Shown here: one piece after another, positions 4,787-56,324 of the stretch | How the letters are laid out: each line of letters starts with the position of its first letter | How positions within the stretch are numbered: the first letter of the stretch is position 1 | Assembly (NCBI GenBank): GCA_020050835.1 | Contig: JAGVKB010000015.1 | Span: forward strand, 1-64,000 | Source: Candidatus Obscuribacterales bacterium | GTDB taxonomy: Bacteria > Cyanobacteriota > Vampirovibrionia > Obscuribacterales > Obscuribacteraceae | Direction of reading: 5' to 3' | Length of the DNA: 64,000 bases | Made by a program: the position numbers and the translations under genes | Notes under the pieces: generated by a model | The model's database searches: none | Told to the model about the DNA's origin: nothing | What the model saw: only the letters and a program-made list of their open reading frames with translations

Positions 4787-5641
4787 TCAGCGACCGGCCG
4801 GGTCGAGCGCGGCGACACGACTGCGGAGCAGTTCGGTGTCCTTTTCGTCGTCACCGGACAGCTCGTCTGCGCCGATCGGTTTGCCGACAACCACGGTTAC
4901 GCCCCGCCGGTAGTACCAGGCTGTTAAGATCAGATAGGCGTAAGACCGGTACTTCGGCCATTTCATGATCCAGCTGCCAGGATACTTGCCGTAGCGCAGG
5001 CAGACCGGAATGATCGGAACCGGTGTGCCGAGCTTCTCGGCTGCTTCTCGCGCGATTCGCACCGCGCCTTTTTTGAACTGTCCGAGCGCGCCATCGAGAT
5101 GGGTTTCGCCTTCCGGACAGAGCACGAGTTGCTGGTCGGTAGTAAGCACTTTCACCGCCGCATCACGAGCTGGTCCGCCTTTACCGCTGGTCGTGTCGAC
5201 GGCGAATCCGCCGCAGCGGGCAAGCAATGGTCCAATCCCGAACGGCAGGCGGAATACCCATTGTGCTCCCATGTAGCGAGCCGGTCTGGGCAGCAGCTGC
5301 TGAACTACGAAACCGTCGGTGTAATGCGGATGATTGAGGGCGATTACTGCCGGTCCTGATTTTGGCAGATTTTCGACGCCGGAAGCTTTGATCTTTCCGA
5401 CCTGATATCCGGTGACGCAGCGCGAGATCGCGTTCAGCAAGCGAACTGCTCGCGGTTTGGGCGGATCTGGCAGGTAGCCGCAGGTGGCAACGGCGCGGGC
5501 ATAAGCCCGGTATCGTTGCCAGTAAGGTGCGAGGTAGTACGCCGCCAGCGCAAAACACATCAGGAAAAACGCAAGCAGCAAAAGCCAGTAGACCGCCACC
5601 ATAGTGGCGAGCAACTGCAGTTGGGCCGGTCCCGGGTGCAT
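4787..5641 (-). CDS. PlsC-type 1-acyl-glycerol-3-phosphate acyltransferase family protein (paralogue 1)
   Basis: Membrane-bound acyltransferase of the LPLAT/PlsC superfamily. An N-terminal transmembrane segment (about 12-38) is followed by motif I NHPHYTD (103-109, the HX4D catalytic pair) and motif III CPEGETH (about 175-181). A GVTVVVGKPI strand near the C-terminus is the usual family end. The likely reaction is acyl transfer to the sn-2 position of lysophosphatidate; the actual acceptor is unknown. The start at 5641 is chosen over an upstream ATG at 5740 because GGGGAG lies seven bases before it and the transmembrane segment begins directly after. It is last in a leftward series of three paralogues downstream of a lipid-kinase gene. 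Confidence 0.88.
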   Translation of the reverse strand: MHPGPAQLQLLATMVAVYWLLLLAFFLMCFALAAYYLAPYWQRYRAYARAVATCGYLPDPPKPRAVRLLNAISRCVTGYQVGKIKASGVENLPKSGPAVIALNHPHYTDGFVVQQLLPRPARYMGAQWVFRLPFGIGPLLARCGGFAVDTTSGKGGPARDAAVKVLTTDQQLVLCPEGETHLDGALGQFKKGAVRIAREAAEKLGTPVPIIPVCLRYGKYPGSWIMKWPKYRSYAYLILTAWYYRRGVTVVVGKPIGADELSGDDEKDTELLRSRVAALDPAGR

Positions 5642-5752
5642 GGTAAGTCTCCCCAGAAAGCATTGTGAAACGGCGAGCCAGCGCGAGCTGGCCTCAAAAA
5701 TAGGAAGAGAGAATCGGCGTTGCGAGCGGTATCGTCGCAAGCGCCGACTCGT

Positions 5753-6601
5753 TCAACCATTTGCCAGCGGGTCGAGATCGGTAATCCGGTCCTTCAGGAT
5801 TTCGGTGGCTTGATCGTCATCGTCCGGCAGGTCAGCCGAGCTGATCGCCTGCCCGATCACGACGGTGACGCCCCGCCGGTAGTACCACGAATTGAGAAAC
5901 ATGTAGAGGTACTCGATGGTCGGCGGCAGCTTTCGGATCCAGCTGCCTGGATTGCGGCCGTAGCGCAGGTAGACCGGCACGATCTTGACCGGCTTGCCGA
6001 GCTGTGCGGCGGCTTCTTTGGCGATTCGGACGGCGCCCTTTTTCATTTCGCCCATCTTGCCGTCGAGATAGGCCCAACCTTCTGGAAACATTACCAGCAC
6101 TTGGTTGGTGGTCAGAACCTTGATTGCTGCTTCGCGGGCCGGACCGCCTTTGCCCTGGGTGAGATCGACGCTGAAGGCGCCGCATGGACCAGCAAGCAGT
6201 GCGCCGAAACCGCGCAAAAAGGTGAAAACGCCGCGGGCCGCCATGTAGCGGGCCGGCCGTCTGATTACGCGCACCACCACTCCCGGGTCGACGTAATGAG
6301 GATGGTTGGGGCAGACCAGAAATGGCTCTGTCTCTTTGGTGTCCTTCGGCGGTTTGGGAGGAAGGTTCTCCTCTCCGAGAATTCTGATGCGGCCTACCTG
6401 AATCCAGGTGACCACGCTGCAGAAAACATTGAGAAATCGCACCCAGCCTGGAGTGGGAGGTGGTGCGAGGTATCCACAAGTGCTGACATCGGTGATGTAT
6501 GCTCGAGCCCGTTTCAATGCCGGACGAGCAAGTAGAAGCCAACCGAGGGCTCCCATCAGCACTGCCGCTAGAATGAACAGCAGAGTTGAAAATGACAGCA
6601 T
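5753..6601 (-). CDS. PlsC-type acyltransferase family protein (paralogue 2)
   Basis: Closest relative of its downstream neighbour, sharing an N-terminal hydrophobic anchor (residues 1-24), a TCGYLAPPP motif after a basic helix, NHPHYVD (99-105), a GKGGPAREAAIKVLTTNQ helix, FPEG, and the C-terminal SWYYRRGVTVVIG strand. HX4D and FPEG are intact, so activity is expected. The 282-residue length matches the other paralogue. An insertion between residues 80 and 95 (Pro/Lys/Glu rich) separates the anchor from motif I. It is separated from the next gene by 111 bases, and all three acyltransferase genes read leftward. The substrate cannot be told from sequence. Confidence 0.88.
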   Translation of the reverse strand: MLSFSTLLFILAAVLMGALGWLLLARPALKRARAYITDVSTCGYLAPPPTPGWVRFLNVFCSVVTWIQVGRIRILGEENLPPKPPKDTKETEPFLVCPNHPHYVDPGVVVRVIRRPARYMAARGVFTFLRGFGALLAGPCGAFSVDLTQGKGGPAREAAIKVLTTNQVLVMFPEGWAYLDGKMGEMKKGAVRIAKEAAAQLGKPVKIVPVYLRYGRNPGSWIRKLPPTIEYLYMFLNSWYYRRGVTVVIGQAISSADLPDDDDQATEILKDRITDLDPLANG

Positions 6602-6724
6602 ATCGCGTTTCCAGTCCTGTGAAGCGCGAAGCGCCCCCGGTTTGAGCGAGGGCGATTCGCGCGCGGGTTTGGGTTGGAGAGACGTGCTACCCCGGCCAGC
6701 ACAGCGCTTGCCGTTAGACGGAGA

Positions 6725-7567
6725 TCAGGACTGCTCGGCTACGTGGAGCAACTCCTGAATCTTTCCGCGGAGGAATTCGATGGCGTTGTGCGGGTGCTCC
6801 GGGTCCGCGTCGTAAGGCAGATCGTGGACCGGAATCGGATCGCCGACGACGACGACCGCACCGAAGTTCTTCGCGCCGAAAATGTTGCGAAACCACTTCT
6901 GCCCGAGCGTGAGCATCAGGCGGTGAAGCAGAGTTGCCTGGCTGCGGTCGTGCTTGTACAGGATGGCGACCGGAATGATCGCCAAAGGCTCGGCACCAAC
7001 CTGGCTGGCCGCCTTGCGCGCCACCTTGACGATGCCCGGACGGAAGTCTTCCGGGCGCAAGATGTTGTCTGCGACCAGCTTCCCTTGTGGAAAGTAAAGC
7101 AAGCTCGAATTCTTCTTGCTGGTGATTACTTCCACACAGGCGTTGATGAAGTTTTCGGCGCCGTTTGGCTGCTTGGAGTCGACGCCGAAACAGCCGGTCC
7201 AGCCGCTGAATAATCCGCGCGGGCCGCGCAGCTCAGAGGTGACGGCGGTATAGCGCTCGTAGTCGACGCCTTGATTGACCAGCGCCCAGTCAGGCGCCTG
7301 GATATGATTGGGAGCGACCAGTTTGCGCCCTTTGTAGCGGCGATACTTTTCGCTGCGGATCACCTTGACCGGACCGATGGAGAGGAAGACCAGGAGGCGG
7401 TTAACAAGGTGGAAGAAGATGCGCGCTGTCCAGGAAGGTTCCGGTGGCAGGTAGCCGCTGGTCTGGAGTTTGCGCCCTTCGCCTTTCCAGAATTGCCGCC
7501 AGAGGTAGATACGAACGGCAGCTACCGCCAGCAGTCCCAGAATTACGAGCAGAGCATATGTGTTCAT
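6725..7567 (-). CDS. PlsC-type acyltransferase family protein (paralogue 3, divergent)
   Basis: The most divergent member of the trio. It has an N-terminal transmembrane helix (3-22), the same SGYLPPEPSW segment, motif I NHIQAPD (97-103; HX4D retained), a strand-loop GCFGVDSKQPNG, and a YFPQGKLV segment in place of FPEG. The Glu-to-Gln change falls in motif III, which in PlsC contacts the glycerol-phosphate acceptor, so the acceptor may differ. A predicted start at 7567 follows AGGAGA at nine bases; the longer ORF from 7597 lacks such a site. The gene leads the acyltransferase series and lies 200 bases from dagK-like 7768-8676. Confidence 0.82.
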   Translation of the reverse strand: MNTYALLVILGLLAVAAVRIYLWRQFWKGEGRKLQTSGYLPPEPSWTARIFFHLVNRLLVFLSIGPVKVIRSEKYRRYKGRKLVAPNHIQAPDWALVNQGVDYERYTAVTSELRGPRGLFSGWTGCFGVDSKQPNGAENFINACVEVITSKKNSSLLYFPQGKLVADNILRPEDFRPGIVKVARKAASQVGAEPLAIIPVAILYKHDRSQATLLHRLMLTLGQKWFRNIFGAKNFGAVVVVGDPIPVHDLPYDADPEHPHNAIEFLRGKIQELLHVAEQS

Positions 7568-7634
7568 GCTTTCGGTCTCCTTTTCGAAATTCCGCAAACG
7601 AAGAGCAATACCTCGGTCTTCTTCGTCTTCGGCT

Positions 7635-7681
7635 GAAGAACACCGGCTCCGGCATTACGTCGGTACGCGCTGGTGTTCTTC
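7635..7681 (-). terminator. Hairpin between lipid-kinase and acyltransferase genes
   Basis: Ten-base perfect arms GAAGAACACC (7635-7644) and GGTGTTCTTC (7672-7681) with a 27-base loop, in the 200-base spacer downstream of the lipid-kinase gene. Long loop and no U-run, so it may be an attenuator or processing site and not a full terminator. Confidence 0.35.
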
Positions 7682-7767
7682 GTAAGTTGCAAGTAAGTGG
7701 TGGATTTCTGTACGGCTGTTTCTTCGGCGGTGCCGGGTAGGCGTCGCTTGGTCCGAACCTTTGGCTG

Positions 7768-8676
7768 CTAGGTAAGAATCATCTTGACCGCGCCCGGCTC
7801 TACTTTGAGGTTGATCTCCTGGGTGGCGGCGCCCGGATCTCCGTCGATGTTTGGCTGCATCGCTTTGTTGCAGCGAATCGTCAGCTCGCTGGTGCGGAAG
7901 CGGTAATAGTGCCGCGACCGTTCTGGTCTGCCTAAGGCCAGCCAGAAAGCGACCGTGATTAGCTGCCAGGCGCTCTGCGCTCGAAAGACGACGACGTCCA
8001 TCAAGCCGTCGGAGGCGTTGCAGCCGCGCGACATGCTTGCCATCGAGGGCGGAGCCACGTTCAAGGCGAACAGTGCGGCCGCATCTTCCTGGGTGTCCGT
8101 GCCGAGCATGCTCAACTGGAAGCGGCGCGCGTTGGGCAGGAGGCAGGCGAGCGCGACCTTCACCACATAGACGAGGCGCCCCAGATAGCGCTTGAGGAGC
8201 GGGCTGGCCGTGCTGATCGCGTCCGACACTTTGCCCAGTCCGAAGCCGACCAGGAAGAGGCGGCTTTGACAGTTGCCGGATTGGTCCTTGTATCTGGCGG
8301 AGACGACGTCGACCGGTTGAGCGGTGCCGGCCAGGATCATTTGCGCAAACTGAGCCGGGGTCGGGTCCGAGTAGAAGCTGCGGGCGAACAGATTGCCGGT
8401 TCCGCCCGGGTAGACGGCCATCGGCACCGGTTTGCCTTTCAATCCGGCGGCAACCTGACAGGCGGTGCCGTCACCGCCGAAGGCGACAACAAGCTCAGCG
8501 CCGGCTGCGACTGCCGAAAGCGTCAGACTCGTCGCCGAATCCGGTTCGGCGGTGGTGGCGCAGAAGGTGACCGCAATCCCGCGGTTTTGAAAGTAGCCGG
8601 CCAGCTCGTTGACCCTGTTTTCGCTTGCGGAGCCGCCTTTGGGATTGTATACGATTGCCAGTGTCTTGAGGTTCAA
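7768..8676 (-). CDS. Diacylglycerol kinase-family lipid kinase (DagK/YegS/LCB5 type)
   Basis: Soluble or peripheral lipid kinase that transfers phosphate from ATP to a lipid hydroxyl. The N-terminal nucleotide domain shows VYNPKGGSAS (9-18), the signature FGGDGT (66-71) and YPGGTGNLFA (89-98). The second domain has GFGLGKVSD and a late NASDGLMDVVVF strand, both family hallmarks, and the C-terminus carries an IDGDPG motif. 302 residues is the expected size. The start codon is TTG at 8676, supported by GAGAGGAAAACCAC directly upstream. Phosphatidate made from diacylglycerol would feed the same lipid pool as the acyltransferases downstream; that functional link is inferred from context. YegS and true DgkB cannot be separated by eye. 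Confidence 0.9.
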   Translation of the reverse strand: MNLKTLAIVYNPKGGSASENRVNELAGYFQNRGIAVTFCATTAEPDSATSLTLSAVAAGAELVVAFGGDGTACQVAAGLKGKPVPMAVYPGGTGNLFARSFYSDPTPAQFAQMILAGTAQPVDVVSARYKDQSGNCQSRLFLVGFGLGKVSDAISTASPLLKRYLGRLVYVVKVALACLLPNARRFQLSMLGTDTQEDAAALFALNVAPPSMASMSRGCNASDGLMDVVVFRAQSAWQLITVAFWLALGRPERSRHYYRFRTSELTIRCNKAMQPNIDGDPGAATQEINLKVEPGAVKMILT

Positions 8677-9554: not shown

Positions 9555-11858
9555 TCACTTACCGCTGTCCACCAGGGACAGCAGCAGGCGCCCGAACTCG
9601 ATAATCGCCGAAGCCATCGGTTGCCCGACCAGGTCGACAAAATACCGTTCGAACGCCGGGTTCGTAATGGTGCTAACCGCGATCTGAACCGGCACGAAAC
9701 CGGCCATTTCGAGGCGGCAAACCAGGTTGTGCAGCGAACCCCACGAGCATTCGGTGGGATTGCCGTCCGAGACCATCAGCAAGATGCGAAGCTCTTTGCC
9801 GCTGCTGGCCGCCGATTGGTACATATGCCAGAGCATCGCCGAGTCGTTGTTGCCTCCGTTAGCACGGAGTCCCGAGACCCGGCTCTGTCCGGGCGTGCCG
9901 CAGTCGTAGATTGTTCTGTCGGTGAATCCCCAAAAGTGAGCCGTGATGCCTCGCACACCGCGCACAGATTCCTCGATCAGGAGGCCGAAGCGCTTGGCCA
10001 ACTCAATGTGCTGGCCGGCCATGGAGCCGGAGCAGTCGATGCCTACTTCGATGTGCACTGATGCCTTCGGCACTTTGTGCTCATCGACGAAGATCGCTGT
10101 TTCGCCGAGCGCCGCTCGCTCGATCTCATCAATCAGCTCGTGACCGGTTTCCTGGTCCTCGATATCGACAACTGCCAGGCCGGTTTGCTCGAGGTAACGC
10201 CGCATCTGCGATGCCAGAGGCAGCACATCGGGCAGCATCGTGTCGAGCGAAGCCTGGTCGGCTGCGACCGGAACGATGTTGTTGATGACGGCGAATTCCA
10301 GCATCGACTCGTCATAATCAGGCGCGCCTCTGGCTGGCAAAGGGCCGTCCATCGCCGGTGGCGGCTGGCTTACAAACTGCTTGATCTGTTTGCGAAAGAG
10401 CCAGGCCAGCAGCGCCAGCAAAAGCAGAATGACTAGCAAGATCAGAAGCGCCAGCCAATTGCTTTTCAGGATGACCGCCACGATCATCGCCAGCAGTGCG
10501 GCCAGCGGAGCGCCGAACAAAAGCGCCCGGAAAGTCGGCGAGCGCCATACTTTTACGGACCATCTCTTGATGGACGCCCAGAGCCAGCATAAGCCGCGCC
10601 AGAACGCCAGTGCTGCCAGCACCGCCCAGGCCGCCAGCATCTTTGCCATCGTCCAGAGCGGCGTCAATAGCCACTGGTGTAACTTGTTCAAGACGGCCGC
10701 CACCGGTTTTGGCGTGTACTTTACCGCTAGCGCGTCCAGGCGGTCCAAGACCTCTGCCGCCTTGCTTTTGAGGGCACCCCAGGCGTGTTGGACGCTGTCT
10801 TTTGCCCTTTCAGCAAGCGATTTCGGCTTCTCTGGCGCTTTGGCCGGTTTGGCAACGGACGGCTTGGCGCTCCTGCGTCGGAGCCAGTTGTCCAGGCAGA
10901 TTGCCAGGATAATCAGCGAACCTGACACGGCCAGGCCGACTGCCGTGTACCAGAAAGCCGAGTCCCAACCGGCCAGCCCGTTGTGGGTAAAGAGCGCGAA
11001 CCAGCCGGCGACAAAGACGATCAGGAGCAGCCAGGAGACTTTCGAGCCGGCGACTTCCCGCCAGAAGGGAGGCTTGGTCGGAGTTGTCTCCGGCGGCTCG
11101 GGCTCGGGTTTCGGTGTCGGCTCCGGAGTCGGAGGCGTTGTGGCAGCAGGCGGAATCGGTTGCGGTGCTTCGACCCCGCGCGCGAGTACTGCGTGCACTT
11201 GGCGGGTGAGATCGAGCAGCTCATCTTTGGAGAGATCCATCAGATTAGCCGGGATCATCGCCAGCGCTTCGGCCACCACCGGATCTTTCGGACCGGGCAG
11301 GTGCCGGCGGAAGTGATAGAGGAATTCGTTGAATCTGGCGATGTAGCCGCCGGGCGGAATCCCACCGGCGTCCGGCGCTTGATCGTCGCCCTCGCCGGTC
11401 ACTTCCTTCCAGCGCGAAGCCTTGTTTTTTCGAATCACCCAGGCGACCAGCGTCTGGAAGCATGCTCCCCAGCTCGGGTCTTTGCTGCGACCGCGCCGCT
11501 CGTTTTGTTCGTCGTCGATCAGATTGAACAGATCTTTGAAACCCTCCGCGGCAGCAATCTTGTACTGTTCGTGCGCCGGCCAGAGATGATGAGCGAGCTC
11601 ATGAAAGCCCAACCCGCGCCAGACATTGATGGCACGCTCGCGGTTGCGGATTTCGAGCAGAACCGACGGGTTCAAGTGAATGTTGATCACCGAACCGTCA
11701 CCGCCGGCGTCGTACGTATAACCGTACTGGTTGCCGCCGATCAGGTGCAACCTGACAGGTCCTCTGGCGTAAAAAGCCAGGTCCGCTGCCAGTAGCCCCG
11801 TCTGTTCCTTGATGAAGGCGATTTCGTCTTTTGTCAGCGGAACTTTCTTGTCAGCCAT
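9555..11858 (-). CDS. Membrane protein fusing an HExxH (zincin-like) domain to a CobT-like vWA domain
   Basis: Domain order: residues 1-230 hold a zincin-like unit with GLGFHELAHHLWP (HExxH at 86-90) and a following FNLIDDEQNERR helix (about 111-122) that could give the third metal ligand. A Pro/Thr/Glu linker covers about 230-270. Hydrophobic segments follow at roughly 273-295, 300-325, 405-430 and 455-495. The C-terminal vWA domain begins near 600 with an intact MIDAS loop DCSGS (608-612), then MVSDGNPTECSWG. The vWA part resembles CobT-type partners of AAA+ ATPases and the DUF2201 metallopeptidase/vWA arrangement. The next gene upstream is a CobS-like ATPase, making an ATPase-substrate adaptor pair likely. 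Metallopeptidase activity is inferred; the topology, with two soluble domains flanking membrane helices, is unusual. Confidence 0.8.
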   Translation of the reverse strand: MADKKVPLTKDEIAFIKEQTGLLAADLAFYARGPVRLHLIGGNQYGYTYDAGGDGSVINIHLNPSVLLEIRNRERAINVWRGLGFHELAHHLWPAHEQYKIAAAEGFKDLFNLIDDEQNERRGRSKDPSWGACFQTLVAWVIRKNKASRWKEVTGEGDDQAPDAGGIPPGGYIARFNEFLYHFRRHLPGPKDPVVAEALAMIPANLMDLSKDELLDLTRQVHAVLARGVEAPQPIPPAATTPPTPEPTPKPEPEPPETTPTKPPFWREVAGSKVSWLLLIVFVAGWFALFTHNGLAGWDSAFWYTAVGLAVSGSLIILAICLDNWLRRRSAKPSVAKPAKAPEKPKSLAERAKDSVQHAWGALKSKAAEVLDRLDALAVKYTPKPVAAVLNKLHQWLLTPLWTMAKMLAAWAVLAALAFWRGLCWLWASIKRWSVKVWRSPTFRALLFGAPLAALLAMIVAVILKSNWLALLILLVILLLLALLAWLFRKQIKQFVSQPPPAMDGPLPARGAPDYDESMLEFAVINNIVPVAADQASLDTMLPDVLPLASQMRRYLEQTGLAVVDIEDQETGHELIDEIERAALGETAIFVDEHKVPKASVHIEVGIDCSGSMAGQHIELAKRFGLLIEESVRGVRGITAHFWGFTDRTIYDCGTPGQSRVSGLRANGGNNDSAMLWHMYQSAASSGKELRILLMVSDGNPTECSWGSLHNLVCRLEMAGFVPVQIAVSTITNPAFERYFVDLVGQPMASAIIEFGRLLLSLVDSGK

Positions 11859-11909
11859 TGGACCCAGTCCTTTTCGATTGAAAGCGAAGCGGGATCAGTC
11901 TGGGGTCGT

Positions 11910-11940
11910 AACCCGGGCGGCTTTTGCAGTCGCCCGGGTT
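11910..11940 (-). other. Intercistronic hairpin between AAA+ and vWA genes
   Basis: Perfect arms AACCCGGGCG (11910-11919) and CGCCCGGGTT (11931-11940) lie in the 121-base gap between the two genes. Without a U-run it is more likely to tune relative expression or mRNA stability than to end transcription. Confidence 0.5.
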
Positions 11941-11979
11941 GACTCAGCACTGGATCCGTCGCGGCGGCGTCGTAGGCGA

Positions 11980-13080
11980 TCACGACTGTTTGAGCAGGTC
12001 GATGATCGTTTTGGAGACGCGGCCGGCTTCTGAGTTTGCATCGGCGTTGTTGCCTTCGAACTGATTGGCGACGCCGGTCAAGAGTGCGGTCTCGAGGTCG
12101 ATACCGCTGGCCAGAAACATCGCTACGTTCTGCGCCGCGCGGGTGGAGATCGTTTGGGACAAACGCATCTTCAAGTCGTGACGCATCTTTCGCAGCTTGT
12201 TGATCACCGTCAACGCCTGGTCGAGCTTGGCTTTGGGACTGTTGGGGAATTTGACCAAGCAATGCGCCAGCTCTTCAGCATGGGGCATGTGCTCGATCTT
12301 GATGATCACCCAGCGGTCTTTGGCGGCGGCGTCGGTTTTGCGCACGGTGAAAGGCCCGCCTTCGTTGGCCGCGGCCATGAAGCGAACATTCGACGGAACC
12401 TCGATCACGTCTCCGTTGGGAAGAGCCATCAGCCGAACCTCTCCTTCGATCACGTCGAGCAGCGCGTCGCGAGCATCCTCGTCCATGCGGCTGTACTCGT
12501 CGATCATGATCAAGAAGATCTCGTTGGGATTCCGAATCGCTTCGCGAATCGCTTTCACCAGCGGCGAATCAACCCACTTGAATACCTGCTTTCCGTCCTG
12601 TTCGACCGGTAGCAAGCGCCCAAGCATGTAGGCGAACTTCTTGATCGTCCCGCCCGAGATCTTGCGAAATTTCCAGTCGAGCTTCGAGGAGACCGCTCGT
12701 GAGATGGTTGATTTGCCGATGCCCTGATCGCCGATCAGCATCAAGTTTTTCTGCCGATTCTGCAAAGTGATCGACATTAGGCGGGCGGTGATTGGGTCGA
12801 CCCAGACACCAGGGAAGTTGGGATCGATCTCCAGCGTGAGCGGCCGCACGACGATCGCTCCCCGACTTTCCGATTGCGGGTTGACGATTCGTTCGATGCG
12901 GCAGACCCAGCTTTCGCCGGCCTTTGGCGTCTGGCTCCGGCGAGAGAGTTCGGGCAAGACGATCTTCTTGGTTCGCTTGCCGTCGATGTGATTCGATTTG
13001 ACCGGCACCGCTCCCTTTGCATTGGTTTCCCAGCGCACGAGGCAGTTGGTGCCCGGTGTGAGATTCTGTTGGTTGCTCAT
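11980..13080 (-). CDS. CobS/MoxR-like AAA+ ATPase
   Basis: A 366-residue AAA+ protein. The N-terminal 100 residues form a small beta-rich domain with conserved Trp residues (about 12-90). The ATPase core has Walker A GDQGIGKST (117-125), Walker B LIMIDE (190-195), sensor-1 region VRFMAAANEGG, and an arginine-containing KDRWVIIKIE stretch typical of CobS/MoxR ATPases. The C-terminal helical part (from about 260) is lid-like. These ATPases remodel or load metal into complexes together with vWA partners. No cobalamin gene is near, so cobalt chelation is unlikely here. The start at ATG 13080 follows GGGAGG; the GTG at 13086 overlaps that site. The vWA partner follows after 121 bases. Confidence 0.88.
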   Translation of the reverse strand: MSNQQNLTPGTNCLVRWETNAKGAVPVKSNHIDGKRTKKIVLPELSRRSQTPKAGESWVCRIERIVNPQSESRGAIVVRPLTLEIDPNFPGVWVDPITARLMSITLQNRQKNLMLIGDQGIGKSTISRAVSSKLDWKFRKISGGTIKKFAYMLGRLLPVEQDGKQVFKWVDSPLVKAIREAIRNPNEIFLIMIDEYSRMDEDARDALLDVIEGEVRLMALPNGDVIEVPSNVRFMAAANEGGPFTVRKTDAAAKDRWVIIKIEHMPHAEELAHCLVKFPNSPKAKLDQALTVINKLRKMRHDLKMRLSQTISTRAAQNVAMFLASGIDLETALLTGVANQFEGNNADANSEAGRVSKTIIDLLKQS

Positions 13081-13151
13081 AGGCACCTCCCAGGCAAACC
13101 CGTTTCAAGCGGGTAATTGCTTAGTAGTGAGATTGAACTGGCCGAGCCGAG

Positions 13152-13748
13152 TTAAGGTTTCGCGCCGGATTGCTGCGACCTGATGTAGCGATACATTCGG
13201 TCCCAGTTGTCGAGGAAAAGGCGGGCTCGCTTTTTCGATTTGATGAAATCCAGTGTGTTGGCTTGATCGTTGGCCGCTTTCGTGTAATTGAAGCTGCCGG
13301 ACTGGACGTACAGACCGTCAACGACTGTGTATTTGCTGTGGAGCAGCTGGTGTTTCTTCTCGGATGTGCCGAGCAGAACTTCGACGCCGGCTGCGGTCAG
13401 CCGAGCGATCTGAGCTTGCTCCACCGGTCCGGATCTCCCCTGCGTCTGAGACTTATCCAGCAGGAGGCGAATCCCAACGCCTCGTTTCGTTTTCAGCTCA
13501 ATCAGCTTATCGACTACCCGCGGGTCGGTAAAAGCGTAGTCGGCGATGTGCACCGACTGGTGTGCCTGGTCTAAAAAGTCGAGGAAGCTGTCGATCCCAC
13601 TTTCGTAGGGCGTGAACACTGTCTTTATGTAGTCTTGTGGATCGACGTCGCCACGATTCGTATGCGAGCCGACCCAGAAACCACCACCGAAAGACATGCC
13701 GAGCAGAACCACGACCAGCACGACCAGAAACTTCTGTTTCAGGCTCAT
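13152..13748 (-). CDS. Membrane-anchored or secreted single-domain phospholipase D/nuclease family protein
   Basis: A 198-residue protein with an N-terminal hydrophobic segment (7-27) and one PLD domain: LLHSKYTVVDG carries the HxKxxxxD motif (His137, Lys139, Asp144), followed by SGSFNYTKAANDQAN (150-164). Size and single motif match bacterial Nuc/EndA-type phosphodiesterases, which act as dimers on DNA or RNA; a lipid substrate is also possible. Position of the anchor suggests action outside the cytoplasm. Start at 13748 is favoured by an AAAAGGAA ribosome site and the position of the anchor. The AAA+ gene follows after 71 bases in the same direction, so PLD, AAA+ and HExxH/vWA genes may be one transcription unit. 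Confidence 0.85.
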   Translation of the reverse strand: MSLKQKFLVVLVVVLLGMSFGGGFWVGSHTNRGDVDPQDYIKTVFTPYESGIDSFLDFLDQAHQSVHIADYAFTDPRVVDKLIELKTKRGVGIRLLLDKSQTQGRSGPVEQAQIARLTAAGVEVLLGTSEKKHQLLHSKYTVVDGLYVQSGSFNYTKAANDQANTLDFIKSKKRARLFLDNWDRMYRYIRSQQSGAKP

Positions 13749-14363: not shown

Positions 14364-14394
14364 AGAAAAAACGAGGACTCGATTGAGTCCTCGT
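14364..14394 (-). terminator. Rho-independent terminator of the HU gene
   Basis: On the minus strand ACGAGGACTC-AATC-GAGTCCTCGT is followed at once by TTTTTTC. The ten-base perfect stem with a four-base loop lies about 60 bases after the HU stop codon. Confidence 0.92.
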
Positions 14395-14455
14395 CTCGTG
14401 TGGATCGAAATGTGTTTACCTAACCTAATCCAACCAAAAGGATACTGATCAGTGT

Positions 14456-34363: not shown

Positions 34364-36037
34364 CTACTTGCTTTCACCCTTGGGGGCGTTGCCGCCGTCC
34401 GGCTTGCTTTGACCGGCAGCAGAGCCGTCGCCCGGCTTGACTTCACCCTTGGCGCCCGGATCGACAGATGACTTTCCTTCGCCGCTGCCGGCTGCGTCGC
34501 CGTCTTTGCCGGGCTTCGCTTCAGCCTTGGGCCGGTTCTTTTCGATCTGCTCGCGCAACGCCAGCATCGCTTGACCGTAGCTGTTGCCTTGCAGAGCATC
34601 GGCCTCGATGTCCGGTTTGACGCCGACTCCGTCAATGGCCTTGCCGCTCGGGCTGGTGTAGCGCGACACCGTCACGCGCACCACGTAGTTCTGGCTCAAG
34701 GTGATGGTGCGCTGACCGGTGGCCTTGCCGCGGGTGGTGGTGCCAAAAATAGTGGCACGCTGGTTCTCCTTGAGCGCGGCCGCGATCAGTTCGGCCGAGC
34801 CGGAGGTCTTGTCGTCGACCAGCACGAACACCGGCTTTTGGGTGTAGCGATTGACTGGTGCGTCGACTACCGCTTCGGAGGCAGCGCGTCCGGCGTAGGT
34901 GGTGGTAACGGTCAGCTTGCCGTCGCGGATTGCATAGCTTATGGCGACTTCTTGACCGTCGATTCGTTCGACCGCGTTTGCCAGTTTGCCTTCCGTCAGG
35001 AAAAGTGCCGCCACCTTCGCTGCTGTCAGCGCCGAGCCGCCTTTTAGCCCGCGCAGGTCGAGCACTATCCCTTCGATGTTCTCCTTCTCCATCTTCTCGA
35101 GCTCGGCCAGAAGTTCTGCTTCGACCGCTTCGCTCCGCAGATTGAAGATACGCACCGCCGCCGTCGTGTCCTTTTGAAACTGAAACGGTCGCGGCATGAA
35201 CAGGCTGGGCTGAACGGTCGTCGGTGCGTTCGGCGCCGGTGCCGTCGCCGGATTCAACTGTCCTCCGAATCCGCCACCAAAGCCTCCTCCGAAGCCGAAG
35301 AATGAGCCTTGTCCTCCGATGTATGAGCGTACCGACGGATCCTGGCGGATCACCTGGCGTGTCAGCTCGAAGGTGATGCGTTTGTGGTCGCGCAGCACTG
35401 CCAGTAAGAGCTTGGAGCCCTCCTGACCGGTTCCGCGCAAAAGCACCATCATCTTGGTGGTGGAGACGGTATCGTCGATCGGCACACCGTCTATTGCTAC
35501 GATTGTGTCGCCCGGTTGAAGTCCGCTCTTTTCCGCCGGTGCGTCGGGGATCAAACTCGCGATCTGACGGCCGGAGAGGTTGATACCGATGCCCACATAC
35601 TTGCCGCTGGCAGCCTGCTCGAAAGCGACGAGCTCGCCGTTGGTAAGCACTACCATGTAACGGTCGCCTGCGCTGGCGAGCATCTGGGCGACAGCTTCGC
35701 GCAATTGAGCTTCGGTTCTGATCTTGCCGTCGAACTTGTGCTGCCACTGGCCCCAGTCGGCGAACCGGCTCTGGTCGAGCGCCTCTTGCGGCACTTTCAG
35801 CCAGGCTTGGTGGTAAACCTCCTCCAGATCTTGTCTGGGAATCGGGGCAAACGGCATGATATTGGCGCCCGGCAGCGGCTGGTTTGCATCGCTGCCGGCC
35901 TGCCGCGAAAGAATCCACGAGCCACCCAGCAAAAGAGCCAGGGCGAGCAGGATGGATATGGCTGCGGCCTTGAGCACGAGCCTTTTGTCAAAAGTGTTCA
36001 AGGAATACCTCCGATACGAGTTACGGGGAGGCGGCAT
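34364..36037 (-). CDS. S41-family C-terminal processing-like protease with PDZ domain
   Basis: A 557-residue protein with an N-terminal anchor (about 22-44), a helical linker, a PDZ domain (about 145-225; GIGINLSGRQIASLIPDAPAEKSGLQPGDTI), a Gly/Phe-rich loop (245-260), and the S41 core. The core shows GIVLDLRGLKGGSALTAAKVAALFL, VDDKTSGSAELIAAALKENQRATIFG and the Lys438-containing RGKATGQ. Counting back from Lys438 on an ungapped match to Tsp, the position of the catalytic Ser falls on Gly413, flanked by Ser412 and Ser414, so activity is not assured. The tail is Lys/Gly/Pro-rich. A TTG at 36067 is an alternative start. It is last but one in the leftward block. Confidence 0.85.
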   Translation of the reverse strand: MPPPRNSYRRYSLNTFDKRLVLKAAAISILLALALLLGGSWILSRQAGSDANQPLPGANIMPFAPIPRQDLEEVYHQAWLKVPQEALDQSRFADWGQWQHKFDGKIRTEAQLREAVAQMLASAGDRYMVVLTNGELVAFEQAASGKYVGIGINLSGRQIASLIPDAPAEKSGLQPGDTIVAIDGVPIDDTVSTTKMMVLLRGTGQEGSKLLLAVLRDHKRITFELTRQVIRQDPSVRSYIGGQGSFFGFGGGFGGGFGGQLNPATAPAPNAPTTVQPSLFMPRPFQFQKDTTAAVRIFNLRSEAVEAELLAELEKMEKENIEGIVLDLRGLKGGSALTAAKVAALFLTEGKLANAVERIDGQEVAISYAIRDGKLTVTTTYAGRAASEAVVDAPVNRYTQKPVFVLVDDKTSGSAELIAAALKENQRATIFGTTTRGKATGQRTITLSQNYVVRVTVSRYTSPSGKAIDGVGVKPDIEADALQGNSYGQAMLALREQIEKNRPKAEAKPGKDGDAAGSGEGKSSVDPGAKGEVKPGDGSAAGQSKPDGGNAPKGESK

Positions 36038-36071
36038 GACCTGCTGCGCTCCACCTGGACAGATCAATCGA

Positions 36072-37752: not shown

Positions 37753-38667
37753 TCAGCGCTTGTGGTTGGCAAAGAGCTTGATGACTTTGGGGATGGCGGC
37801 GTCGCCTTCCTCAGTGCTCACCACCAGCCAGGAAACGTGAATCGCCTTGAAGAAAGCAGTACGCTCTTCCTTCCGTTTGTCGACGTTGGCCGCAAACTTG
37901 GCGCGGTTTTTCTTCGACAGGAAGATGAGCACACGTTGGCCCGTCTCCATGTCCTGGTAAGTGAAGTAGCCCCAGCCCGGTGGCAGCTCGCGCTCGCGCC
38001 GGTCCTCGATGACGAGGCAGACGACGTCGTGCAGGAGAGCGGCTCGCCTCAGTGCGACTTTCTCTTCGCTCGACAGGGTCTGGAAGTCGGACAGGAGAAA
38101 GACGAGTGAGCGCGACTTGGGCAGCGCCGACAGGGCCTTGACCAGACCGCTGCCGGTTGCGCCGGGAGTCGACTGCGTCTCCAGGATGTTGACCAGAGCC
38201 GGCAGGATGGCCCGCTTGGCGGTGCGCGTCGTTACCTTCTTCTCCACCCGGTTTTCCGAGTAGGCGATGAAGCCGACGCGATCGGATGTCTCTTCTGCCG
38301 AGCGGCAGACAGAGGCGGCCATCTCCGCGGACAGGTAGCGCTTGGTGGCGCGTACGGTGCCAAAGTCCATCGACCGGCTGAGGTCAGCCAGGACGAAGAC
38401 CTTGATCTCGCGCTGATCGCGGTAGACGTTCTTGAAGAGCACGCGGCCGCCAGTCTGTGCGGTCGCCTTCCAGTTGATGAAGCGCGGGTCGTCTCCGGGC
38501 GTGTATCGGTCGAGCGTTTCGAACTCCTGCCGGTTATGACCCCGGAAGAAAGTTCGCCTTTCACCACCGCCAGGCACGGAGCCGTTGGTGCGCCACTTGA
38601 CCGGGATTTCGCAGCAGACAACCCGTCGGAGAATCTGTTGAATCTCCTTTTTCGTTTCGGGTTTCAT
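37753..38667 (-). CDS. DUF58 domain-containing protein
   Basis: A 304-residue DUF58 protein. It lacks the N-terminal membrane helices of many DUF58 proteins. The family motifs are RRTFFRGHNRQEFETLDRYTPGDDPRFINWKATA (about 38-71) and a vWA-like domain starting VFVLADLSRSMDFG, with LSRS replacing the canonical D-x-S-x-S (DLSRS retains Asp-x-Ser-x-Ser). DUF58 proteins are constant partners of MoxR ATPases and are thought to act in protein maturation. The MoxR gene is upstream (175-base gap with a hairpin), and the BatD-like gene is downstream. The start at 38667 gives the usual MKPETKKEIQQILRRV helix. Confidence 0.93.
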   Translation of the reverse strand: MKPETKKEIQQILRRVVCCEIPVKWRTNGSVPGGGERRTFFRGHNRQEFETLDRYTPGDDPRFINWKATAQTGGRVLFKNVYRDQREIKVFVLADLSRSMDFGTVRATKRYLSAEMAASVCRSAEETSDRVGFIAYSENRVEKKVTTRTAKRAILPALVNILETQSTPGATGSGLVKALSALPKSRSLVFLLSDFQTLSSEEKVALRRAALLHDVVCLVIEDRRERELPPGWGYFTYQDMETGQRVLIFLSKKNRAKFAANVDKRKEERTAFFKAIHVSWLVVSTEEGDAAIPKVIKLFANHKR

Positions 38668-38842: not shown

Positions 38843-39850
38843 TTACTTCGTCTTGGGCTCGACAACGGGGACGGCGTTCAACACGATGTTGATCGCTTCG
38901 TCGGTGGTGAAGCCGTCGAAGATCACCTCGTCGGTGAGGATGATGCGGTGGCGCAGGATGTCCTTGGCCACGGCCTTGACGTCTTCGGGCAGAACGTGGT
39001 CGCGACCGGCCAGGAAGGCGCGCACCTTGGCGGTCTTGTAGAGCCAAATCTGGGCGCGAGGCGAGGCCCCGACCTTGATCTTGCCCTGCAACTCGTTCTT
39101 GACGAGCTTCTTGAACAGCGGGTCTTCGGGACGGGTGCAGCGCACCAGGTCCACGATGTACTCCTTGGCGGCCGGCTTGACGCGGACGTTTTCGATGATG
39201 TGCTTGCGCATCGCGATCACATCCGAGACGGTGATGGTCTGCTCGATCCCGGCCTGCGCGTCGCGGCCGTGAACGTGCAGAGCATCGAGAATGGCCAGCT
39301 CGTCTTCACGCGAGGCGTAGTCGACGATCAGCTTGAAGCAGAACCGGTCCTGCTGCGCTTCCGGCAGCGGGAAGGTGCCTTCCTGCTCGATCGGGTTCTG
39401 GGTGGCCAGCACCAGGAAGAGCTGTTCCATCTTGCGGGTGACGCCTTCGACCGAAACCTGGCGCTCCTGCATCGCTTCGAGCAGCGAGCCCTGGTTCTTG
39501 GGCGTGGCCCGGTTGATTTCGTCGATCAACGCCAGGTTGATGCCGACGATCGGGCCGGGCCGGTATTCGAACTCCAGCGTCTTGGGGTTGTAGACCATGA
39601 CGCCGATGATGTCGGACGGCTGCAGGTCCGAAGTCATCTGCACGCGGCGCCATTGTGATTCGCCGAGCGTCGATTGGAGCGTCGAGATGAGGAGGGTCTT
39701 GGCCAGACCGGGCAGACCCTCGAGCAGAACGTGGCCGTCGGCCAGCAGCGCGAAGATCACCCGCAGCTTGACGTTGCGGTAGCCGAAGATATTCTTGTCC
39801 AGCTCGCCGAGCAGCTTGTTGACCTTGGCGATCATTTCCTGCTGATTCAT
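38843..39850 (-). CDS. MoxR-family AAA+ ATPase
   Basis: A 335-residue MoxR ATPase. Walker A is LEGLPGLAKT (about 43-52), Walker B LALIDEINRATPKNQGSLLEAMQE (about 107-130), and sensor 1 LVLATQNPIEQEGTFPLPEAQQDRF, all nearly consensus. The C-terminal lid has ASPRAQIWLYKTAKVRAFLAGRDHVLPEDVKAVA. MoxR proteins act as chaperones for vWA partners, often in metal insertion or stress survival. It lies between a vWA gene (upstream, 105-base gap) and DUF58. Seven leftward genes around it (34.4-42.9 kb) form one likely functional set. Confidence 0.96.
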   Translation of the reverse strand: MNQQEMIAKVNKLLGELDKNIFGYRNVKLRVIFALLADGHVLLEGLPGLAKTLLISTLQSTLGESQWRRVQMTSDLQPSDIIGVMVYNPKTLEFEYRPGPIVGINLALIDEINRATPKNQGSLLEAMQERQVSVEGVTRKMEQLFLVLATQNPIEQEGTFPLPEAQQDRFCFKLIVDYASREDELAILDALHVHGRDAQAGIEQTITVSDVIAMRKHIIENVRVKPAAKEYIVDLVRCTRPEDPLFKKLVKNELQGKIKVGASPRAQIWLYKTAKVRAFLAGRDHVLPEDVKAVAKDILRHRIILTDEVIFDGFTTDEAINIVLNAVPVVEPKTK

Positions 39851-39955
39851 GGGAAATTCTCCCTTTCAAAGGTTGCCTTAGATGATGTTTGGATAAGGTC
39901 CGGTGCCGGTCTAAGGCCCCGGGCTGCCAGACCTTTACACGTCAGTCGAAGCAAG

Positions 39956-41023
39956 TTAGACGAGGTCGTTCCGCTTGCGGAGACCACGCAGAGACAACGC
40001 GAAAAGCAGTACGAGCGCGGCTGCCAGCGGATACTGGAAAACCGGCGTTTCGTGGGCCTCAGCCTTGCTGCCAGCGAGCTTGGATGCCCACTGGATGTTG
40101 AGGTCGCTGGCCTTTTCGAGGCGGATCAGCTCGCCACCGGTCAGGCTGGCGATATGCTCCAGAGTGGCCGGAGTGTAGACGGTCGGAACAACCTTTCCGT
40201 CCTTCTTTGCCCAACCGGCGAAATGGTATTCGCCGTCGGCGCCCAGCAGATATTCGGGAATCTCGATCGGAGAGTCTCCACCCATGCCGACGATGATTAC
40301 GCGAACTTTCAAATCGACAATCTCTTGCAGGACCTTGTCCAGCTCTTCGAGCTTGTCGTCGAAACCGCCGTCGGAGAAGAGCACGATTACCTTCTCTTTG
40401 TTTGGATCGTGCTTCTGCTTGAATGTCTTCAGTGCCATGGTCAAGCCGTCGACCATGTGAGATCCGCCGCCCGGAGCGATCGGTCTGACGACCGTAACCC
40501 ACTCCTCGAGAACAAAGCGCAGAGCTTGGAAGTCGTCGGTGAGCGGGGCTTGCGAGAAGCCTGCTCCGGAGTAAGTGACGATGCCGATCTGGTTGCCCGG
40601 AATAGCGGCCATGATCCTGGTTAGGATCACGTGCTTGGCCATGTCCAGGCGGCTGCCGTGCGGACCGTCGCTCGCGGGCGGACCGGGCAGTTGGGTACGG
40701 TAGTCTTCGGCGTGCGAGCTTTTCGACCCGTCGATGACGGTGACGACCTGGAGCGAACCGGTCTTTGCTCTCTGTGGGGCATCCGGCCGCATCGGACCGG
40801 CAAGCGCCACCACCAGCAGTGACAGAATCGCCGCCCAGGCGACGAGCTCGAGCGCTTCGGACGCGAGCGTCAGTCGTCGCGTGTAGCGATCGACCAGCCG
40901 CTCGTCGCCGTAAAGCTTGCGAGCCTTTTGGCGCAGCCAGAAGCTGACGTACCACAATCCAGCCGCCGCCGGCAGCACGGCCAGGAGGGCGTAAAGATAT
41001 TCAGCGTTTGCGAAATGGATCAT
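39956..41023 (-). CDS. vWA-domain membrane protein (BatA/BatB-like)
   Basis: A 355-residue protein with two N-terminal membrane helices (about 8-28 and 58-75), a vWA domain (about 90-300) and a C-terminal membrane helix (about 325-345; FQYPLAAALVLLFALSL). The MIDAS motif is IDGSKS (97-102), followed by SHMVDGL and LFSDGGFDD, so metal binding is likely. Domain order matches BatA/BatB of Bacteroides-type aerotolerance operons. AAAGGAAC lies before the ATG at 41023; longer extension to 41086 is not favoured. The TPR gene precedes it by 176 bases. Confidence 0.88.
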   Translation of the reverse strand: MIHFANAEYLYALLAVLPAAAGLWYVSFWLRQKARKLYGDERLVDRYTRRLTLASEALELVAWAAILSLLVVALAGPMRPDAPQRAKTGSLQVVTVIDGSKSSHAEDYRTQLPGPPASDGPHGSRLDMAKHVILTRIMAAIPGNQIGIVTYSGAGFSQAPLTDDFQALRFVLEEWVTVVRPIAPGGGSHMVDGLTMALKTFKQKHDPNKEKVIVLFSDGGFDDKLEELDKVLQEIVDLKVRVIIVGMGGDSPIEIPEYLLGADGEYHFAGWAKKDGKVVPTVYTPATLEHIASLTGGELIRLEKASDLNIQWASKLAGSKAEAHETPVFQYPLAAALVLLFALSLRGLRKRNDLV

Positions 41024-41199
41024 TGCAAGTGTTCCTTTTCCAAAGCGACGCCTTTTCGGGCGTCTCGGAGATTGAAGGGAGCTCAAGCGGCGCCGCCGCC
41101 TCCGTCGACGTGCTCAGAGCGAAAACTCGATTGAGTTCGCAACCGGAGCGGTTTCGGGAGCGGCGACGCCGAATGCCGTTTTGCGCAGGGCAGCTGCGC

Positions 41200-50746: not shown

Positions 50747-52534
50747 CTATTCGAGCCAGCGCTCCTTCACCTCGCCGTCCTCGTCGCAGAAGTACTCGTA
50801 GGCGCGCGGCGGGCCGAGCGGGCGACCGCTGCGGTCGGACTCGACCTCCTTGGTGAGCAAGCGGACCGGACGGCCCCAGAGACGGCGCACGTAGCGCACC
50901 GTGTCTTTGCACTCAGACTGCAGGAGCGGTCCGAAGTTTTCGTCGAACTCGTGACGGAGCGTCAGCGAGCCATCGGTGAAATGTCCGCTGTCCACCACGA
51001 CGATAATCGGCACGCTGGCGTAGCCGGTGCGCAGCAGAAGCATCTGCTTCAGCTTTGCCTTGTTCTCCACGTAAGAGCCGACGATCTGAAGCACCGTGCC
51101 CATGCTCTGCAGAGTCTGCATCGGCACCGGAAACGGTGGCATTCCGAGGTCGGGGCGGAGCAGCTCGGTTTGCTCGGCCAAGCCTGCCCACTTTTCGACC
51201 ACGGCCATCAGACCTTCGAGGTCGATCGGCAGCGGATCGACGATCGTGTTGGGCGACCAGCCGGTCTTGGCGAGCATGCGGTTGATCTGCATCATCACCC
51301 GGCGCACCCATTCGAGCCCTTCCTCGTTCATCTCCAACAGGATGTCGTCGGTGAGGTGCGTGCGCAGGAAAGAGACGTCGTCGCAGTTGGCGCGCACCCG
51401 GAACATCATATCCCGGTTGCGCTTCACGACCTTGACCTGCTTGACGCGCTTGGTGTGCGTCCAGACTTCGTCGCCGTCCTCGGTCGTTTCGCGCTTCAAG
51501 ACCGGCACGCGCACGGTCTCTTCACCCTCGTCGCAGCCGTACTTCCGGTCGATGCCCTTGAACACTCGCAGACCGAGGTTGTACGGGTTAAACCAGATGT
51601 CGGTGATCGTCCGCTGGTGCATCGAGAAGAACGGGGCGCAGCCCATCTTCCACTCGAGCGGGAAGTCGAGCTCGGGAGCCTTGAGAAGGACTTCTTCCCA
51701 GTAGCTCGCCCAGCCCTCGTTCATGATCTTGGTCAGACCCTGCGGCTTGAGATAGCGCGCCTGGTCACGGCCGATGGCGATCAAGCCGCGGGCCTCATCC
51801 GAGAGCCGCGGGTTGTTCTTCTCGTCCATCAGGAAGGCGAGCAGGTCCTCGGTCGGGTGAATCGGCATGTTCTTCAGCTTGGCTTCGAGCTCGGTGATTT
51901 CAGCCTTCAGGCCTTCCTTCTCGAACTCGGAAACCAGCTTGGGAACCTTCAGTTGCAGCTCGAGCAGGCGAGCTTCGAGCTTGAGCCGCGCTTCCTTTTC
52001 GCTGGCCGAATCTTCGATCGTCGGCACGATGCCGCAATGATCGTCGATCGCGTGCACGGCGTCCAGGATGTATTCCACCCGGTCGATGCCGAAATCCGGC
52101 CGCTCGATCAGCCGCCGAATGTACTCCTTGTTCTGGGCGAGCCGTTCGTCGAGCGACTCCGGGCGCGATTCCTTGAAGCGGAAGTTGTGCGCGAAGAAGT
52201 CGACGTGTCCCCACTTGGCGTGCGCCATCACGAGCACCTGCATGAGCAGCTCGTTGGTCACGCCAAGGTAGCAGTGGGACGGATTGGAATTGATCACCGC
52301 CTCGAAGATGTGGAAGCCTTTCGACTCCTTGATCTGCTGCTCGTACTTCTTGCCGAACGACCAGTGCCCATAGTGAGTGGGCATCATGGTGTACGGAATG
52401 AGGCGGATCATTTGCTCGTCCGAGACGAGCTCGTAGATGGTGCGGAAGGGACGGAGGCCATGCCGAGTGCCGGCCTGCGTCAACCGCTCATCGAACTCTT
52501 TCAAGTTCCTCTTCAAGCGTTCGAAAGCACTCAT
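50747..52534 (-). CDS. spoVR: SpoVR family protein
   Basis: A 595-residue SpoVR-family protein, longer than the usual 470-510. The core includes RHGLRPFRTIYELVSDEQMIRLIPYTMMPTHYGHWSFGKKYEQQIKESKGFHIFEAVINSNPSHCYLGVTNELLMQVLVMAHAKWGHVDFF, with the conserved YHYGHW-type and HC-Y motifs. GWASYWEEVLL and the NPYNLGLRVFKGIDRKYG motif come later. The C-terminal 100 residues form an extra segment with a beta pattern. SpoVR/YcgB is functionally tied to PrkA and YeaH in stress responses and sporulation. Its ATG overlaps the YeaH stop (TAATG). The mechanism of SpoVR is not established. Confidence 0.93.
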   Translation of the reverse strand: MSAFERLKRNLKEFDERLTQAGTRHGLRPFRTIYELVSDEQMIRLIPYTMMPTHYGHWSFGKKYEQQIKESKGFHIFEAVINSNPSHCYLGVTNELLMQVLVMAHAKWGHVDFFAHNFRFKESRPESLDERLAQNKEYIRRLIERPDFGIDRVEYILDAVHAIDDHCGIVPTIEDSASEKEARLKLEARLLELQLKVPKLVSEFEKEGLKAEITELEAKLKNMPIHPTEDLLAFLMDEKNNPRLSDEARGLIAIGRDQARYLKPQGLTKIMNEGWASYWEEVLLKAPELDFPLEWKMGCAPFFSMHQRTITDIWFNPYNLGLRVFKGIDRKYGCDEGEETVRVPVLKRETTEDGDEVWTHTKRVKQVKVVKRNRDMMFRVRANCDDVSFLRTHLTDDILLEMNEEGLEWVRRVMMQINRMLAKTGWSPNTIVDPLPIDLEGLMAVVEKWAGLAEQTELLRPDLGMPPFPVPMQTLQSMGTVLQIVGSYVENKAKLKQMLLLRTGYASVPIIVVVDSGHFTDGSLTLRHEFDENFGPLLQSECKDTVRYVRRLWGRPVRLLTKEVESDRSGRPLGPPRAYEYFCDEDGEVKERWLE

Positions 52535-53793
52535 TATTTGGCCCCCTTTTTCTTTTCCTTGGTCAGGATCTGCTTGAAGGCATCGGGGATGCCCTTGAGG
52601 TCCGCAACCTTGGCCATTCCAATGTGTTCCTTGATCTCGTCCGGCAGCTTGCTGATCGCTTCGCCGCCGGAAGCCCAGTTGGGGCGCCCGAATCGGCCGC
52701 TGCGGTCGGAGGGATCGATCTCCAGGTAGCCCAGGTAGTTGAAGGCTGCCTTGGTGAGCAGGTCGGTCATCCATTTCCGAACGGTCTCTTCACCGTCGAA
52801 CATGTAACCGTCAGTCGCCTGGAACATGTAGGCGTTGTACTCCGATTCGGAATACCGGCTCTTGCGCAGGTCGAAGATCATCTTGTAGGCCGGCCCGAAC
52901 ATCGTGCCGCCGTCGACTTCGATCTGGTAGAACTTGCGCTCGTCCTCGATCTCGTAGGCCTGACCGTCGTGGGCGATCATCACCACGACCACTTCCTTGT
53001 ACTTGGTACGCAGGAAGAGCAGGTTGAGCAGGAAATACGCTTTGGCGATCGCCAGCGGATCGCCGCCCATCGATGCCGAGCGGTCGAGCATGAAGAAGAC
53101 CACGCACTTGGAGTCGTCGTCCTCTCGCTCTTCGACGCGATGGTAGCGGAAGTCCTTTTTCGAGAACGGCACCTTCTTGGTGCTGGGGATGTTGGACTGC
53201 TCGTCCTCGAAGTGTTCGGGTTGAGCATTCTTCATCCCGATTGCGCGACGAATGCGGGCGCGAGCGGTGTCCGCCTTCTTCAGGCGCGGCTTGGGTCCGT
53301 TGACCTGAGTCCCGCGGTACTTGAAGGTGGTGACCTTGGTGGTGGCGAACTGCTTCTTGAGCATGTCCGGGAGTTCCATCTCCTCGAACAGCATCTGAAC
53401 CAGCTCTTCCATCGTGATCTCGATGTAGATCAGATCACCGGGATTGCCGCCGGCCTTCTTGCCTTTGCCGCCGCCGCCGGCCGGGTCACGGCCGTAACGA
53501 AAGCGAGGTTCGTAGCCGCCTTGAACCGGAACCTTGATCTTGCCCTTGTCACCGAAGATCGGAGAGCCTCCGATGATGCCGGGGAGTTGGGGCTTGATCT
53601 GGTCTTTGATGCGGTCCTTGTGGCGGTCGCGGTCATCCTTCGTGCGGTCGCCGCCGCCGTAGTCGGGAGGGTTGATTACGCTGTCCAGAACGACATTGCG
53701 CGTCAGCCCTTTGAATGGATGCGGTGAGCTGCCGGAGTCGAAAAGCACGAACGTGCTCTCAAAGTCCTCCAGCGTCTTGCGCTTCTTTGCCAT
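52534..53793 (-). CDS. yeaH: YeaH/YhbH family protein (DUF444) with vWA-like domain
   Basis: A 419-residue DUF444 protein. The N-terminal part (1-150) has a Gly-rich loop (PAGGGGKGKKAGG) and LIYIEITMEELVQMLFEEMELPDMLKK, a family hallmark. The vWA-like domain begins at about 228 with VVFFMLDRSASMG (Asp237-Ser241), then ATDGYMF later. The end is helical and Lys-rich. In enteric bacteria yeaH lies between the PrkA gene yeaG and is co-expressed in stationary phase. The start at 53793 follows GGAGG. It overlaps spoVR by one base. A 320-base spacer with two hairpins separates it from the kinase gene. Confidence 0.95.
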   Translation of the reverse strand: MAKKRKTLEDFESTFVLFDSGSSPHPFKGLTRNVVLDSVINPPDYGGGDRTKDDRDRHKDRIKDQIKPQLPGIIGGSPIFGDKGKIKVPVQGGYEPRFRYGRDPAGGGGKGKKAGGNPGDLIYIEITMEELVQMLFEEMELPDMLKKQFATTKVTTFKYRGTQVNGPKPRLKKADTARARIRRAIGMKNAQPEHFEDEQSNIPSTKKVPFSKKDFRYHRVEEREDDDSKCVVFFMLDRSASMGGDPLAIAKAYFLLNLLFLRTKYKEVVVVMIAHDGQAYEIEDERKFYQIEVDGGTMFGPAYKMIFDLRKSRYSESEYNAYMFQATDGYMFDGEETVRKWMTDLLTKAAFNYLGYLEIDPSDRSGRFGRPNWASGGEAISKLPDEIKEHIGMAKVADLKGIPDAFKQILTKEKKKGAK

Positions 53794-56305: not shown

Positions 56306-56324
56306 GGTTATCACCTTTCACTTG

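Follow-up and report, generated by a model that had tools for sequence, protein, structure and literature searches.

Organization of the locus

The window, which is the whole 64,000-nucleotide stretch analysed here, belongs to the 7.0 Mb draft genome of a Candidatus Obscuribacterales bacterium, a non-photosynthetic relative of cyanobacteria. Three minus-strand genes, encoding a PLD-type nuclease, an AAA+ ATPase and a 767-aa vWA protein, lie in succession where the initial annotation had positioned them (Table 1). The set is parted from the upstream HU gene by a strong terminator-like site, and no minus-strand terminator-like site was found between the PLD, AAA+ and vWA genes. About 65-71 nt separate the PLD gene from the AAA+ gene, and 121 nt lie between the latter and the vWA gene.

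Table 1. Features of the three-gene set and its upstream limit (window positions)
Feature	Positions	Strand	Basis
CobT-like protein, 767 aa: zincin-like HExxH domain, membrane-helix linker, finger, vWA	9555..11858	-	sequence, model, hhalign
N-terminal zincin-like domain (residues 10-225)	11184..11831	-	AlphaFold, Foldseek
HELAH (residues 86-90), potential zinc site	11589..11603	-	kept in 37/38 alignment rows
Second helix (residues 108-126); D116, E117, E120, R121 invariant	11481..11537	-	model and alignment
Membrane-helix linker (residues 273-488)	10395..11042	-	hydropathy; model helices, moderate confidence
Finger region before vWA core (residues 535-600)	10059..10256	-	Foldseek alignment extent, low pLDDT; role after PMC13036017
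vWA domain: DCSGS MIDAS (608-612), GGNND (668-672), D698	9558..10061	-	sequence and model
MoxR/CobS-type AAA+ ATPase, 366 aa from ATG 13080 (or GTG 13086)	11980..13080	-	AAA_5, motifs, hhalign
Nuc-type single-HKD PLD nuclease, N-terminal anchor or signal; most likely a neighbour and not a component	13152..13748	-	PDB 1byr, linkage in relatives
Terminator-like hairpin after HU gene; bounds the set upstream	14368..14397	-	terminator scan

The most likely start codon of the PLD gene is the ATG at 13748. The protein has one HKD motif and one N-terminal hydrophobic helix, as had been described, and it matches PLDc_2 (E=5e-21) and the Nuc endonuclease (PDB 1byr; E=8e-14). It is a Nuc-type nuclease of the ordinary kind, either secreted or anchored. 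PADLOC matches of this protein to DrmC were set aside, being explained by the common PLD fold.

Other gene groups were noted elsewhere in the window. On the minus strand at 4787-8676, three genes for PlsC-like acyltransferases stand in a row with one of the diacylglycerol-kinase type. A second, classical MoxR - DUF58 - vWA set, also on the minus strand, occupies 38843-41086 and 37753-38667; next to it are a gene with no Pfam match and then an S41/PDZ peptidase gene (34364-36067). The usual PrkA-YeaH-SpoVR cluster is present on the minus strand at 50747-58685, with genes for SpoVR, DUF444 (vWA-type) and, unusually, a tandem pair of PrkA-like kinases.

The AAA+ protein

The second gene encodes the CobS/MoxR-like ATPase with intact Walker motifs that had been reported for this position. 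The protein matches AAA_5 (E=2.5e-12; 47 bits against a cut-off of 22) and carries the Walker A motif GDQGIGKST and the Walker B motif FLIMIDE. Walker A, D196/E197, the sensor residue N241 and R258 are invariant in nine family members, and the arginine finger is intact. The nearest named models are GvpN and CobS, and the protein scores far below their cut-offs (29 bits for CobS, where the NCBIfam cut-off is 559). A phage CobS aligns with it (hhalign E=2e-11), and the alignment covers the region in which a helix-2 insert would lie. The first ~95 residues (window 12800-13080) form an extra, apparently strand-rich N-terminal region that is conserved in the family; this region preceding the AAA+ core had no Pfam match.

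Domains of the 767-aa protein

The 767-aa protein passed no Pfam cut-off. CobT_C was the sole relevant weak match (14.7 bits against a cut-off of 21) and PF06213 did not match; because these scores lie below the Pfam cut-offs, we treat the protein as a CobT relative and do not file it as CobT. When the family profile was searched against PDB sequences, it returned chance matches only, plus a CobT vWA domain at E=1.5. A phage CobT (PQ867845 ORF18), which is encoded beside a phage CobS and passes both CobT Pfam cut-offs (PF06213, PF11775), aligned end to end with the family profile (hhalign, 96.8%, E=3e-10), placing HEAGH on HELAH, NTLEDIWMERR on NLIDDEQNERR, DLSGSM on DCSGSM and GGGNSD on GGNND.

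The initial annotation had described an HExxH motif at residues 86-90, several membrane segments and an intact vWA MIDAS at residue 608, and had likened the protein to the DUF2201 type. The architecture was borne out, and a fusion of the HExxH domain to the vWA domain through membrane helices is supported: both motifs are present, hydropathy placed membrane segments at residues 274-292, 304-322, 401-419 and 469-487, and the model has helices across 273-497. The DUF2201 assignment did not hold. The DUF2201_N profile had no match in the window's genome, no family model assigned the HExxH region to DUF2201, and hhalign against a DUF2201 protein recovered the vWA core only, at 10% probability, against the 97% obtained end to end with phage CobT. 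Since the phage CobT alignment includes the HExxH motif, we describe the protein as CobT-like and not as DUF2201. Membership of DUF2201 (PF13203) was accordingly dropped, with no profile match and an N-domain not detectably related by hhalign.

The N-terminal domain was modelled by AlphaFold with a pLDDT of 87.7 and a pTM of 0.84. In this model the HExxH motif lies on a helix (73-92) that follows short strands, and E117 lies on the helix at 108-126. Short strands, an HExxH helix and then a helix bearing a glutamate are the usual zincin layout. Of 38 aligned homologues, drawn from several phyla, 37 retain H86, E87 and H90, and all retain the four invariant residues of the second helix; conserved to this extent, these features are not due to chance. 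The module idea had been said to fail if the HExxH segment modelled as a helix far from any third ligand. In the predicted fold a candidate is at hand on the next helix, the invariant E117, likely the third metal ligand by fold and spacing, which speaks against that case, but HExxH itself is missing in two relatives.

Foldseek comparisons of the N-domain gave whole-domain matches to viral CobT/VWFA predicted proteins (prob 1.00, TMq 0.5-0.6). Against PDB, the matches were minigluzincins (E 0.5-1) and a zincin, all weak and non-significant, and a PDB sequence search with the HExxH domain gave no match. The Zincin_1 profile matched weakly in 5 of 38 family members. HExxH is kept in 8 of the 10 Obscuribacterales proteins with a complete N-domain and, outside Obscuribacterales, in all 30 loci where that domain is complete, a conservation that hints at a role beyond passive docking. 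The motif is lost in L032 and L033 (relatives G006 and G011), which form a supported clade (0.999) on long branches and retain DxSxS, the gene pairing, the membrane segment and family C (see below).

The best Foldseek matches of the vWA half were the NorD VWA (4e-9) and the Rea1/MDN1 MIDAS domain, and the top ten were all vWA domains of AAA+ partners. Alignments to NorD VWA and Rea1/MDN1 MIDAS span about 250-285 columns, extending past the bare vWA core; low pLDDT was observed at 567-572, inside the finger region. A hydrophobic hairpin immediately N-terminal to the vWA part is conserved in the family alignment. The full model has low confidence (pTM 0.39) in the membrane bundle and in how the domains are placed.

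Conservation of the AAA+/vWA pair

Homologues of the 767-aa protein were found in 10 of 49 family genomes in addition to the window's own, and those in nine family loci are 30-45% identical. The AAA+ gene lies directly upstream of the vWA gene, with a gap of 19-81 nt, in 9/9 loci whose contig reaches far enough to be assessed; the contig of L031 ends inside the vWA gene, and L026 is counted among the nine with just the end of the AAA+ gene on its contig. No relatives besides the window's own genome were found in a phylum-wide sample of 386 genomes, nor on viral contigs searched with patterns of the 767-aa subfamily.

As a single query against the genome contigs the 767-aa protein gave no match, and the family alignment used as a profile recovered 42 loci. 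The profile search reached 34 loci outside the family, in Myxococcota, other Deltaproteobacteria, Planctomycetota, one Wenzhouxiangella and unclassified MAGs. An AAA+ gene is present in 30 of these 34 and generally lies downstream of the vWA gene, so the pairing is kept while gene order changes. The proteins are typically 1,600-1,860 aa long and run from HEAT repeats (three were scanned) through the HExxH domain to the vWA domain; no strong membrane segment was found in the six Myxococcota/Planctomycetota and other homologues examined. The AAA+/vWA pair is thus a real, conserved unit, in agreement with the proposal that a CobS/MoxR-type ATPase works here with a vWA partner.

Two further protein families, B and C, are encoded downstream of the vWA gene (L024-L033) and are nearly confined to genomes with the pair. 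Family C proteins are helical, about 550-780 aa long, with one N-terminal TM helix in those examined. The gene lies downstream of the pair in 9/10 relatives with the pair, and family C occurs in one of 39 relatives lacking the pair (Fisher p=5e-8, kinship ignored). In the single exception the gene extends to within 11 bases of the end of its contig, and its neighbour is beyond view. Family B, encoded in five relatives, is weakly similar to C and has no evident TM segment. Neither family had a meaningful Pfam match. Family C is an undescribed membrane-anchored helical protein and the best candidate partner in most Obscuribacterales relatives. Neither B nor C was found in the window's genome, and the family-wide partner argument therefore does not extend there.

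Proposed function

We propose that the pair is probably a membrane-remodelling machine, in which a MoxR/CobS-type AAA+ ring is anchored to the membrane through a CobT/NorD-type vWA partner. The analysis shows that the two genes are paired, that the vWA protein is homologous to CobT over its full length and has a vWA fold like that of NorD and midasin, and that membrane segments and conserved ATPase motifs are present. By homology and fold, the AAA+ ATPase would form a hexamer whose pore is plugged by the finger of the vWA protein, while the N-terminal zincin-like domain would hold the complex at a second point. ATP hydrolysis would then twist and stretch the linker between the finger/vWA part and the N-domain. 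As this linker is made of membrane helices, the force would be exerted within the membrane or at its surface, with a partner membrane protein as its target, and hence we suggest membrane-protein remodelling.

The initial annotation had raised an ATPase-driven membrane protease or nuclease module. In an ATP-driven membrane metalloprotease, HExxH and E117 would bind zinc, and a substrate in or close to the membrane, delivered or unfolded by the AAA+/vWA part, would be cleaved there. The near-complete conservation of the motif over several phyla, including its catalytic-type glutamate, the motif's retention in phage CobT, the predicted order of strands, HExxH helix and Glu helix, and the weak minigluzincin, zincin and Zincin_1 matches are all consistent with such an enzyme. 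The PDB fold matches are, however, non-significant, and the fact that one clade has lost HExxH while its loci are otherwise complete argues that protease action is not essential to the core function. To our knowledge, no protease activity is known for CobT-type proteins. The peptidase annotation of phage CobT has been called a mistake (PMC8651126). We therefore consider the metalloprotease unlikely. It is quite unlikely, too, that ATP-driven twisting of the membrane-helix linker directly gates a fused zincin protease with lineage-specific partners, which on that reading would be the HEAT-repeat fusion in Myxococcota and Planctomycetota and, in Obscuribacterales, the helical proteins B and C, encoded separately.

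The pair might instead be one of the MoxR-vWA conflict systems found in multicellular bacteria, ternary systems with VMAP, iSTAND, FtsH or beta-propeller components. These systems share the MoxR-vWA core, contain HEAT repeats and rarely metallopeptidase domains, and are typically hosted by planctomycetes and deltaproteobacteria (PMC7159879). VMAP, iSTAND, FtsH and beta-propeller domains were nevertheless absent from the pair and the downstream proteins scanned, PADLOC gave no convincing match for the AAA+ or vWA protein, and effector-domain shuffling was not seen within the family. We regard this assignment as very unlikely.

Cooperation of the PLD nuclease with the ATPase and the HExxH-vWA protein in a three-gene module would accord with the shared strand, short gaps and lack of an intervening terminator in the window's genome. 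PLD orthologues, mostly 45-57% identical, were found in 15 relatives, 7 with the pair and 8 without; presence was somewhat more common with the pair (7/9 genomes, against 8/26 lacking it; p=0.02, kinship ignored). However, the PLD gene lies on a different contig in 7/7 relatives holding both, including G027, whose pair sits on a 259-kb contig. None of the ten family loci contains it, nor do the loci of other phyla. An unlinked PLD gene in relatives had been set beforehand as refuting the module, and the three-gene idea therefore fails; we give it almost no weight. The PLD gene beside the pair is most likely a coincidental neighbour and not part of the machine.

A cobaltochelatase-like motor for CobN, suggested by the CobS/CobT-type homology and by a CobN-type protein elsewhere in the window's genome (contig C86), is similarly improbable in the extreme, given the low CobS score, an AAA_5-matching gene of CobN's own within 1 kb on C86, and the absence of CobN from 7/9 relatives with the pair, which means that CobN is not the pair's obligate target. 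Co-occurrence thus agrees with the earlier opinion that cobalt chelation is unlikely. As a separate observation, the C86 region (78556-83000) holds a CobN/BchH-type protein and the neighbouring AAA_5 match in a non-photosynthetic genome.

Comparison with known systems

The pair appears to be a membrane-linked, undescribed variant of the known MoxR/CobS-vWA class; literature searches found no paper on it. The MoxR-vWA ternary conflict systems share its MoxR-vWA core and, in some, HEAT repeats, but their third components and effector domains were not found for the pair (PMC7159879). The MIDAS domain of Rea1/midasin is likewise an AAA+-docked vWA domain with a finger, but belongs to a eukaryotic single-chain ring that acts in ribosome assembly. 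Pairs of DUF2201 and AAA proteins also place HExxH plus vWA beside an AAA+ gene, but the N-domain is not detectably related (hhalign) and no membrane segment was noted. One such pair was observed at L095 (1054-3718), where the gene for a DUF2201 HExxH-vWA protein adjoins an AAA+ gene in relative G010, which lacks the pair studied here.

CobT/CobS (PF06213 plus PF11775), and phage CobST especially, share with the pair an AAA+ protein beside a protein with a zincin-like N-domain (with HExxH in phage), a linker, GGN-D and a vWA domain. The linker is soluble there and made of membrane helices here, and co-occurrence shows no link to CobN here. Cellular members without a tie to CobN thus retain the HExxH domain of CobT-type proteins, and one may ask whether CobT descended from a protease.

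NorQ/NorD, a MoxR AAA+/vWA system, gave the best fold match, with vWA domain and finger, and likely shares the linker-stretching mechanism. It differs in that the NorD N-terminal domain was not recovered against the HExxH domain and in that the NorD linker is soluble, with no membrane bundle. In NorQD, the pore of NorQ takes up the NorD finger, while the N-terminal domain attaches to the side of the ring and ATP use stretches the linker (PMC13036017). That work suggests that the class acts by stretching the linker of the vWA partner; a variant whose linker is a membrane bundle points to membrane-protein remodelling and offers a natural direct test of this mechanism.
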